Below, one piece after another: positions 2,191-29,675 of a DNA stretch of 64,000 nucleotides. Position 1 is the stretch's first letter; each line of letters opens with the position of its first letter. The translations under genes were made by a program, and so were the position numbers. Source of the stretch: Victivallis lenta (lineage in GTDB: Bacteria > Verrucomicrobiota > Lentisphaeria > Victivallales > Victivallaceae); assembly GCF_009695545.1 (NCBI RefSeq), contig NZ_VUNS01000019.1, forward strand, positions 1 to 64,000, in the 5' to 3' direction. The notes beneath the pieces were generated by a model. That model was not told the DNA's origin, did no database searches, and was given only the letters and a program-made list of their open reading frames with translations.

Positions 2191-5100
2191 ATGAGATTTT
2201 ACAGGAAACTGTTCTGCATGATCGGGCTTGGCTGCCTGATTGCCGCATCCGCCTCCGCCGGCTGGAAAGAGGAGCGGGATTTTGCGGAAAAGATGAAAAA
2301 GGAGTGCGAGCGCTCGCCGCGTCAGACTCCATACCGGGTAAATGGAGAAACCATTCCGGTTGAGCCGGAGTTCTGTATCAATATCCATCATCTCGACGAT
2401 AAGGTCGCCGCGAATTTGAAAAAAGCCGGAATCAAAACCGTCCGGCATACAATTTACTGGTATGCTGTTGAGAAAACGAAAACTCCGGGCGTTTATGACA
2501 GGAATGAATTGGAAAAGCTCGACAAACGGTTTGCGGATTACAAGAAGTTCGGCCTCGAACCGCTGGTGATCGTCCACGGTAACGCGCCCGGCACGGGTTT
2601 TGCGAATCGGCAGGAGTCCTACGAACGGTTCGGGAAGTTCATGGCAATGCTCGCAAAGCGTTACCCGGACGTGAGATATTTCCAGTTGTGGAACGAGATG
2701 GATGTCGCGTTCACGGATCTTTTCGGAAAAAATGCAAAGCTTCCGATGGAGGAGCGCGCGAAGTGTTACGTCGAAATGCTGAAGGTCGTTACGCCGATGA
2801 TCAGGGCCGCGAATCCGAAAGCGGTCGTTGTGACGGGCGGCATGGTCGACAGCGACGAATTTCCGCACGGGCTTTACAAACACGGCGGCCGGGAGTATTT
2901 CGACGTGCTCGCGCTTCACACCTACGGCATGCCGCTTTCGTGGTCGTTCATCGGGCGCGGGGCGCGGGTGCGGAAGATCATGGACGAAAACGGCGACGCG
3001 GCAAAGCCGCTCTGGAACACCGAGTTCGGTGCAAGCGGCGAGGGAATCGCCCAGGCATGGGGCATCCCGAAGGAGGATCCGGTCAAGTCGTTTGATGAAC
3101 GTCAGTGCGATATGCTGACCGGATGTATGGAGTTCAACAAAAAGGCGAAAATTTACAGCAAATATTTCGTCTATGCCTACCATGCGGGTTCGGAGGCGTC
3201 GAAGGCGATGAAGGAAAAACTGGAGAAACAGGTTCCCGGCATCAATTTCAATGATATCACTTTCAGTCTGGTGAAAAAGGACGGAACTCCGAAAAAGTTC
3301 ATGCAGCGGTTGATCGATGATCAGTCGCGCAAAAAAAAAATAACGCAGGAAGCGGGACGCGCCAAAAGCGTTGATGGACGTCTCTATTTTCGCAACCGCC
3401 CGTTTTTCCCGCTCGGGCTGGTGTTCGGGCGGACCGATGCGGAGATGCAAAAGGCGAAGGCGTCCGGCTTCAACAGCATCCATCAGGAGTACAGCCTCCG
3501 CGATGTGCTGCCGGAAGGGCCGGACAGGATCGATCCGGCCGGCGTGCGGCGCATCCGCGATCTGCACGAGACCGCCCGGCGGAACGGCATGGTGCTGTTT
3601 CCGCTGCTGACCGGACACTACATACCGGGCTGGCTGGGCAAAACGGCGGGACCGGCTCCCGCCGACATCAACGGTGCTCCGGTCGGTCTCTGGTTCCGGC
3701 ACAGTCTGCATCACCCGGCCTACCGGAATGCGCTGGAAACCTTCTGGCGAACCGTGGCTCGGGAGGTCGGCGACGACCCGAATGCCGCGCTCTTCGTAAG
3801 CTGGAACGAACCGGCCTACGGGCTCGATGCGACACCGGCCGCCTTGAACGCCTACCGGAACGCGATGAAACGGCAGCACGGCTCGATCGACGCATTCAAT
3901 AAGGCGATGGGAACGCAATTCGCCGCATTTGAAACGATCGTTCCGCCCGCCGCGCCGGATGAAAACCGGAAATTTTTCTACTGCTGGTTCCGCTATAACC
4001 AGCAGGCGTTTGCGGATTTTTTCGCCTGGCAGCGTTCGATCCTGCTGGCCGAGGCCCCGGAAATGAAGCTCTCCGGCAAGCACCCGGTGACGGCATTGCT
4101 CGGCGACGCGCTTCAGGTCAACCATATACCGCTGCAGGCCGCGGCACAGGATATCTACGGCTGCGACGCCTACAACGGCTCTCTGCTCCATTATCGCGAC
4201 GCGATGGAGGCGGCCCGGTCGCTCTCCGGCGGCGGTCCGGTCATTTCGTACGAAACGCATGCACAGAAGGGGATTCCGCCGGTGAAGCCGGACCACGCCG
4301 CGTTGCAGATGTTCGTGCAGATCCTCGGCGGCTGCCGCGGGATTTTCTTCTTCTGCAACGGCGAACAGCCGCAGTTCGGCTTCTACTCCGACAAAGCCAC
4401 GCCGCCGCCGGTGCGGGAGAAGCTTGAAAAACTGTTCCGGCTCATCGATGCGAACCAGACGATTTTTTCGCTGCCGCGCGCGAAGGCGCAGATCGCGGTG
4501 CTGCTCTCCGACACGGCGAATCTGCACTACGGCAGCGACCCGGAGCCGCCGAGGCGGGACGAATATGCGAAACGGGTCTCTCAAACCTATGATCTTCTTC
4601 GCAATCAGCATTTTGCCGTCGACTTCATCACGGAGTCGCAACTGGCGGGGAAGCTTGGTGATTACCGCCTTCTCGTCGTCCCCTCCCGCTCGATCCTGAC
4701 TGATGCCGAGTTGGAACTCCTGGCCTCCTATCTGAAAAACGGCGGAAAACTGCTGGCGTTCGGCAAGGCGTTCGACCGCAACGAGTTTTTTGAACCGCGC
4801 GGCCTTCCGCCGCTGCTCGGCATCGACAGGCGCGAGCCTGCGCCGTGGAATCGCGGCCAGATGCGGCTGGTGGAGGTCGATCCGGCTCTGGCCGAACAGT
4901 TTCCGACCGAGATTATCGTGCAGGAACCCGAACGTGTGAATCCGCTGCCGATGGAACAGGCGATTCCGGGCTACATTCCCGAAAGCCGGCTGGATGCGCA
5001 TCGGACGCTGGCCGCAAATCAGGACGCCTACCCGTCGATCGTCATGTCGAACGACGGACGGGTGGTCTACTGCGCGTTCGATTCGCTCTACTCGACCGAG

Positions 5101-5409
5101 CTTTCGCAATTGATCGGGGGAATTGTCGAGCGGAGTCTCGGAATCCCGCGCGAAATGCGGATCACGCGCCCCGGCAGTCCGGACGAGGCGGTCGAGCTGC
5201 TGGGCGCCGTGAACCGATGCGGAGACGAGACGGCGCTCCTTTTTGCAAACTCCGGCGCGCGGCCGGGCCGATGGGAGATCGCCGTCCCCGGAGTTCCGGA
5301 CGGAACGTGGCGCGAACTTTCCTCCGGAGAGGCGGTTCCGGTGAAAGAGGGGCGTTTCTCTCTTTCGCTGCCGCCGTACGGCTACGCGGTGCTGACGCCG
5401 GCGCGCTGA
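2191..5409 (+). CDS. Secreted two-domain glycoside hydrolase (GH39-like + GH42/beta-galactosidase-like)
   Basis: The 1072-residue protein has a signal peptide (residues 1-23, hydrophobic core CMIGLGCLIAASASA) and two TIM-barrel glycosidase units. In the first (about 25-380), WNE places the acid/base Glu at 169 and WNTEFGASG the nucleophile Glu at 278, a clan GH-A pattern like GH39. The second (about 396-760) resembles GH42: SWNEPAYG gives Glu540 and ISYETHAQ gives Glu688. After it come a Rossmann-like trimerisation-type domain (about 780-930) and a beta-sandwich tail. The junction is encoded by ten consecutive A residues (3331-3340). With nine A the frame would stop at once after residue 383. 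The substrate is unknown; a beta-linked plant or mucin glycan is likely. Confidence 0.85.
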   Translation: MRFYRKLFCMIGLGCLIAASASAGWKEERDFAEKMKKECERSPRQTPYRVNGETIPVEPEFCINIHHLDDKVAANLKKAGIKTVRHTIYWYAVEKTKTPGVYDRNELEKLDKRFADYKKFGLEPLVIVHGNAPGTGFANRQESYERFGKFMAMLAKRYPDVRYFQLWNEMDVAFTDLFGKNAKLPMEERAKCYVEMLKVVTPMIRAANPKAVVVTGGMVDSDEFPHGLYKHGGREYFDVLALHTYGMPLSWSFIGRGARVRKIMDENGDAAKPLWNTEFGASGEGIAQAWGIPKEDPVKSFDERQCDMLTGCMEFNKKAKIYSKYFVYAYHAGSEASKAMKEKLEKQVPGINFNDITFSLVKKDGTPKKFMQRLIDDQSRKKKITQEAGRAKSVDGRLYFRNRPFFPLGLVFGRTDAEMQKAKASGFNSIHQEYSLRDVLPEGPDRIDPAGVRRIRDLHETARRNGMVLFPLLTGHYIPGWLGKTAGPAPADINGAPVGLWFRHSLHHPAYRNALETFWRTVAREVGDDPNAALFVSWNEPAYGLDATPAALNAYRNAMKRQHGSIDAFNKAMGTQFAAFETIVPPAAPDENRKFFYCWFRYNQQAFADFFAWQRSILLAEAPEMKLSGKHPVTALLGDALQVNHIPLQAAAQDIYGCDAYNGSLLHYRDAMEAARSLSGGGPVISYETHAQKGIPPVKPDHAALQMFVQILGGCRGIFFFCNGEQPQFGFYSDKATPPPVREKLEKLFRLIDANQTIFSLPRAKAQIAVLLSDTANLHYGSDPEPPRRDEYAKRVSQTYDLLRNQHFAVDFITESQLAGKLGDYRLLVVPSRSILTDAELELLASYLKNGGKLLAFGKAFDRNEFFEPRGLPPLLGIDRREPAPWNRGQMRLVEVDPALAEQFPTEIIVQEPERVNPLPMEQAIPGYIPESRLDAHRTLAANQDAYPSIVMSNDGRVVYCAFDSLYSTELSQLIGGIVERSLGIPREMRITRPGSPDEAVELLGAVNRCGDETALLFANSGARPGRWEIAVPGVPDGTWRELSSGEAVPVKEGRFSLSLPPYGYAVLTPAR

Positions 5410-29535: not shown

Positions 29536-29675
29536 GACGACGGCCCTTCCTCCTCCGGAGGGTAATCTACCGAATGCGGCGGAAAATACAAGCCGGATTC
29601 GTTTTTTTTTCCGTTTTTTTTCGTTTCCGGTGCAATATCGGGGGAAGAAAGCGCGTTATTTTAACAATTACGGAC

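Follow-up and report, generated by a model that had tools for sequence, protein, structure and literature searches.

A run of ten A residues lies inside a long open reading frame of Victivallis lenta, at the junction of two predicted glycosidase domains, and this position raises the question of whether the run acts as a switch. According to the original prediction, RNA polymerase slippage on the run could yield both a one-domain and a two-domain secreted enzyme from the same gene. If true, a single gene would provide two enzymes that differ in reach, with no need for a second promoter or a protease. The window analyzed here is the whole 64-kb stretch of DNA at the start of contig NZ_VUNS01000019.1, and the features of interest are collected in Table 1. 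The results favor, with a probability of roughly three in four, a lineage-specific homopolymer in the fast-evolving linker of a genuine fusion protein, which probably leaks some truncated enzyme and is not a programmed switch.

Table 1. Features of the glycosidase gene and of its poly-A run, in window coordinates.
Feature	Position	Strand	Basis or remark
ORF, 1072 aa plus stop, predicted secreted two-domain glycoside hydrolase	2191..5409	+	Uninterrupted in the V. vadensis orthologue
Probable signal peptide (MRFYRKLFCMIGLGCLIAASASA, cut before GW)	2191..2259	+	Reading of the sequence; V. vadensis has the ASAGW cut site too
Predicted N-terminal clan GH-A barrel, GH5/GH39-like; catalytic Glu candidates within QLWNEMD and NTEFG	2398..3300	+	Pfam Cellulase; PslG; low-confidence model
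Inverted repeat GC-A-GCGGTTGATC / GAT / GATCAGTCGCGC, core of 10 pairs with 2 more outside it, about -11 kcal/mol as RNA	3303..3330	+	Abuts the run
A10 tract in the inter-domain linker, encoding three Lys and the first base of an Ile codon	3331..3340	+	Sequence, frame reading
TAA, stop at one base fewer (or two more)	3341..3343	+	Run-length simulation
TGA, stop at one base more (or two fewer)	3372..3374	+	Run-length simulation
Predicted C-terminal GH42-like part; catalytic Glu candidates within SWNEP and SYETH	3391..5406	+	Glyco_hydro_42, Glyco_hydro_42M, C-terminal beta domain

The identity of the two parts was probed by domain and structure searches. Residues 70–280 match the Pfam Cellulase model (PF00150) with 52 bits (cut-off 23.5), and the nearest solved structure for the N-terminal part in the PDB is PslG, with an alignment that spans the WNE and TE(F/W)G motifs. 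These matches assign the N-terminal part to clan GH-A as a GH5/GH39-like domain in which both catalytic glutamates are present as candidates, with the family within the clan left general. The C-terminal part matches the GH42 catalytic domain (PF02449, 34.9 bits, cut-off 21) and the GH42 trimerisation domain (PF08532, 28.9 bits, cut-off 25.8), as well as structure 5xb7 remotely, and is classed as GH42-like on the basis of two domain models above their curated cut-offs. Reading of the sequence suggests a candidate acid/base and a candidate nucleophile glutamate in each part. The Pfam and PDB matches to both parts bear out the proposal of a two-domain glycosidase with its junction at the run. In a low-confidence AlphaFold model (mean pLDDT 65, approximately 44 around residue 380 in the linker), the first barrel finishes before a terminal helix (residues 369–388) that contains the KKK encoded by the run, while the strands of the second domain start at residue 391, indicating that the run sits between the domains, although the exact boundary is not fixed by the model. 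The composition of the gene also changes here, as the GC content rises across the junction from 53.6% in the first part to 63.1% in the second, and the A-over-T skew peaks at 3001–3500.

The run is flanked by CGC before and TAACG after, and the frame of the ORF crosses it as CGC AAA AAA AAA ATA ACG (R-K-K-K-I-T, residues 380–385), in agreement with the reading first proposed, that of three lysines and the first base of an isoleucine codon at the linker. The consequences of a change in run length were determined by simulation from A8 to A13. Loss of one base (A9) gives a product of 383 aa ending in RKKK, so the TAA expected immediately after the lysines is indeed there. Gain of one base (A11) gives 394 aa ending in RKKKNNAGSGTRQKR, with a stop 11 codons past the run, inside the span of about 15 codons that had been anticipated. 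Lengths of A8 and A12 yield 393 and 384 aa, respectively, and only A10 (1072 aa) and A13 (1073 aa) lead to the full-length, two-domain protein. All lengths outside 10 + 3n consequently terminate at the linker or just beyond, and each of the slipped frames (A8, A9, A11, and A12) gives a defined short product of 383–394 aa.

Comparative evidence on the junction comes from Victivallis vadensis DSM 14823 (NZ_QEKH01000056), whose orthologue is a single uninterrupted ORF of 1075 aa that is syntenic and shares 68% identity. A survey that covered 78 genomes from the family and 388 from the phylum found, apart from this genome, a true orthologue in V. vadensis only. A contig search returned no match with the present protein as query and only V. 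vadensis with the V. vadensis protein; no orthologue was found in viral contigs or plasmids, and a search of the genus for the junction sequence, allowing up to 3 mismatches, gave nothing beyond this genome except partial matches to unrelated sequence. Four paralogues from the genus with a GH42-like part (L010, L070, L073, and L076) were considered as further informants on the junction and set aside, as their N-terminal parts differ; of the three scanned against Pfam, two are CBM9-like and one has no match. The V. vadensis protein is the same two-domain enzyme with the same upstream neighbor, and it differs in having neither the A-run nor the hairpin that precedes it here. At the position of the run it reads CGA AAA ACA TCT GCC GGA, with a linker of RKTSAGRENGG. 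Identity falls to 31% in the linker (residues 371–400) compared to 64% in the N domain and 73% in the C domain, and the synonymous sites of the linker and C domain are saturated. Lysine codons by the junction are replaced by arginine in V. vadensis (KK/RR, residues 368–369), and the GC step is far milder there (59.4% to 62.4%), with the N-terminal half at 0.594 versus 0.536 here. This comparison argues strongly, at the level of sequence, that the two-domain fusion is genuine and that the full-length form is the conserved product. The expectation that homologues would keep the run while the codons around it vary is contradicted by this sole orthologue, which was an outcome named beforehand as evidence against the switch.

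The run is unusual yet within chance. No other A or T run in the window is as long; the runners-up are T9, T8, and A7. Counted on both strands of the 5.5-Mb genome, there are 279 runs of exactly A8, 44 of exactly A9, and six loci with A10 or longer; counts drop six- to sevenfold per extra base in a smooth decay, with no surplus of long A/T runs. One of the six long runs is a T11 located right behind a GC-rich hairpin, which is terminator-like (L003). A second long run in a coding ORF is a T10 inside the confident ORF L001:1037-1903 (G000:C4 near 103595), an example of the A/T runs of 9 or 10 that likewise lie within confident ORFs. The product of the L001 ORF resembles a multi-spanning membrane protein and has no Pfam match. 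Elsewhere in the window (29602–29621), an A9 and an A8 lie three bases apart in the minus-strand sense, approximately 65 bases before a probable ATG, and look intergenic. Given KKKI and the codon usage of this gene, 13% of synonymous recodings yield an A10, because all isoleucine codons start with A. That a TAA follows directly is mildly coincidental: in this gene, the loss of one base leads to an immediate stop at 2.7% of codons, and the gain of one base to a stop within 14 codons at 29%.

Precedents for productive slippage are available. The A9 of Thermus thermophilus dnaX undergoes measured transcriptional slippage that provides approximately 50% short product (PMC1088944), and slippage on an A9 in the full-length ORF of Yersinia pseudotuberculosis tssM3 leads to 15–25% truncated product (PMC4256274). 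In a Roseiflexus IS, an inverted repeat 5' adjacent to the slippage motif T5C5 stimulates slippage (PMC5009743). The present locus resembles dnaX in that one ORF encodes the full-length protein, the poly-A run lies inside it, and nearby stops occur in both other frames, such that slipped transcripts would give a shorter product without the C-terminal part. The two differ in that slippage in dnaX is measured and functional, whereas the run described here is unconserved, lies in a glycosidase gene, and is known from sequence alone. Similar to tssM3, the run is a poly-A tract in a long ORF that is not common to homologous genes; in contrast to this A10, tssM3 has an A9 whose slippage has been measured and which is part of a type VI secretion gene. 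The inverted repeat immediately 5' of a motif of about the length of the RNA:DNA hybrid recalls the Roseiflexus IS, although the motif there is heteropolymeric, slips only with the hairpin, and slips to give a longer, needed product.

The hairpin is best regarded as a lead only, as it was spotted after the fact. It stands out by the length of its stem but not by its folding energy. Its stem has 10 uninterrupted pairs counting G-U (two G-U pairs); a stem of this length occurs at 0.23% of window positions, and a 10-pair hairpin is found in 2.8% of synonymous recodings. In contrast, an upstream hairpin that is equally stable by folding energy is found at 13% of window positions.

Taken as a productive slippage site of the dnaX type, in which A10 and a nascent-RNA hairpin would set a useful balance between the one- and two-domain enzymes, the locus offers an A/T run of at least 9 in a coding region, defined short products from wrong frames that close quickly at a domain boundary, and a hairpin that abuts the run and resembles a known stimulator. 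Its anatomy would thus allow it to work as in dnaX or tssM3. Conservation, however, fails in the one orthologue at 68% identity, where both run and hairpin are missing, and the weight of the hairpin is reduced by its frequency by energy and its post hoc discovery. With a single orthologue at this distance for comparison, a switch of recent origin in this lineage keeps a small probability. Furthermore, E. coli RNA polymerase in homopolymeric A/T runs produces mainly insertions, with deletions rare (PMC5574713), and a clean loss of one A is therefore not the predominant outcome there. Productive slippage is consequently considered unlikely, and the narrower proposal, in which hairpin-assisted slippage at a lineage-specific poly-A site sets the ratio of single- to two-domain secreted glycosidase, is less likely still. 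Were the run to slip productively, polymerase error would dose two enzyme forms and recoding of the dnaX/tssM type would extend to polysaccharide degradation. We know of no slippage-set ratio for a secreted carbohydrate-active enzyme, and a literature search for slippage combined with a glycosidase found no such case.

A second proposal is phase variation at the DNA level, wherein replication slippage would alter the length of the run within the population and turn the second domain on or off. The run is a coding mononucleotide repeat, and a precedent for productive replication slippage exists at a G-tract of the gut commensal Bifidobacterium breve (PMC9187656). This proposal is nevertheless very unlikely: the V. 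vadensis orthologue has no run, long A/T runs are not in excess genome-wide, the assembled length is the in-frame length, and the enzyme is no obvious surface antigen.

An assembly or sequencing error would mean that the true length of the run differs and that the locus is two genes or a broken gene. Long homopolymers are often error-prone in sequencing, and an artefact joining two genes had been raised from the beginning; the V. vadensis orthologue contradicts this, as its fusion is intact and a single ORF continues over the junction. The second part lacks both a signal peptide of its own and a suitable start codon ahead of its first strand, which together with the intact V. vadensis ORF makes wrongly joined genes unlikely. 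In addition, A10 is, as judged by sequence comparison, exactly the length that homology on both sides requires, rendering an error highly improbable. Equally improbable is ribosome sliding on AAA AAA AAA A in place of polymerase slippage as the source of a truncated product, given that in vitro A9 and A10 give little truncated product while A11 is robust (PMC4363877), and that no strong structure was found downstream of the run (z -0.5).

The reading preferred here, a lineage-specific homopolymer in a tolerant linker, suggests that A10 arose in this lineage when neighboring AAA lysine codons coalesced in a lysine-rich, fast-evolving stretch, where changes would be cheap and the run would be tolerated. 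Drift towards AAA lysine codons appears to be a sufficient account of the run, based on the AT-rich N-terminal half and the Lys/Arg differences from V. vadensis. RNA polymerase very likely slips on such a run at some level, and because any length but 10 or 13 terminates at or after the linker, a minority of first-domain-only enzyme would be expected as a by-product. Since insertions dominate in E. coli, A11 with its 11-residue tail would be the likelier short form, and the A9/TAA product would probably be the minor one. There is no sign that selection or regulation acts on this by-product. Of the original prediction, polymerase slippage on the run thus remains physically plausible from the A9 precedents, while its use as a switch between a one- and a two-domain enzyme is not borne out, as run and hairpin are both absent from the only orthologue. 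As it stands, the locus suggests that a poly-A run can be harmless in an inter-domain linker, and that a homopolymer at a domain boundary is by itself weak evidence for recoding.

Immediately 5' of the glycosidase gene, the window contains two consecutive pilin-like genes with an N-methylation motif (716–1483 and 1512–2156). In V. vadensis one prepilin-like gene is located directly 5' of the orthologue, the same upstream neighbor as here.
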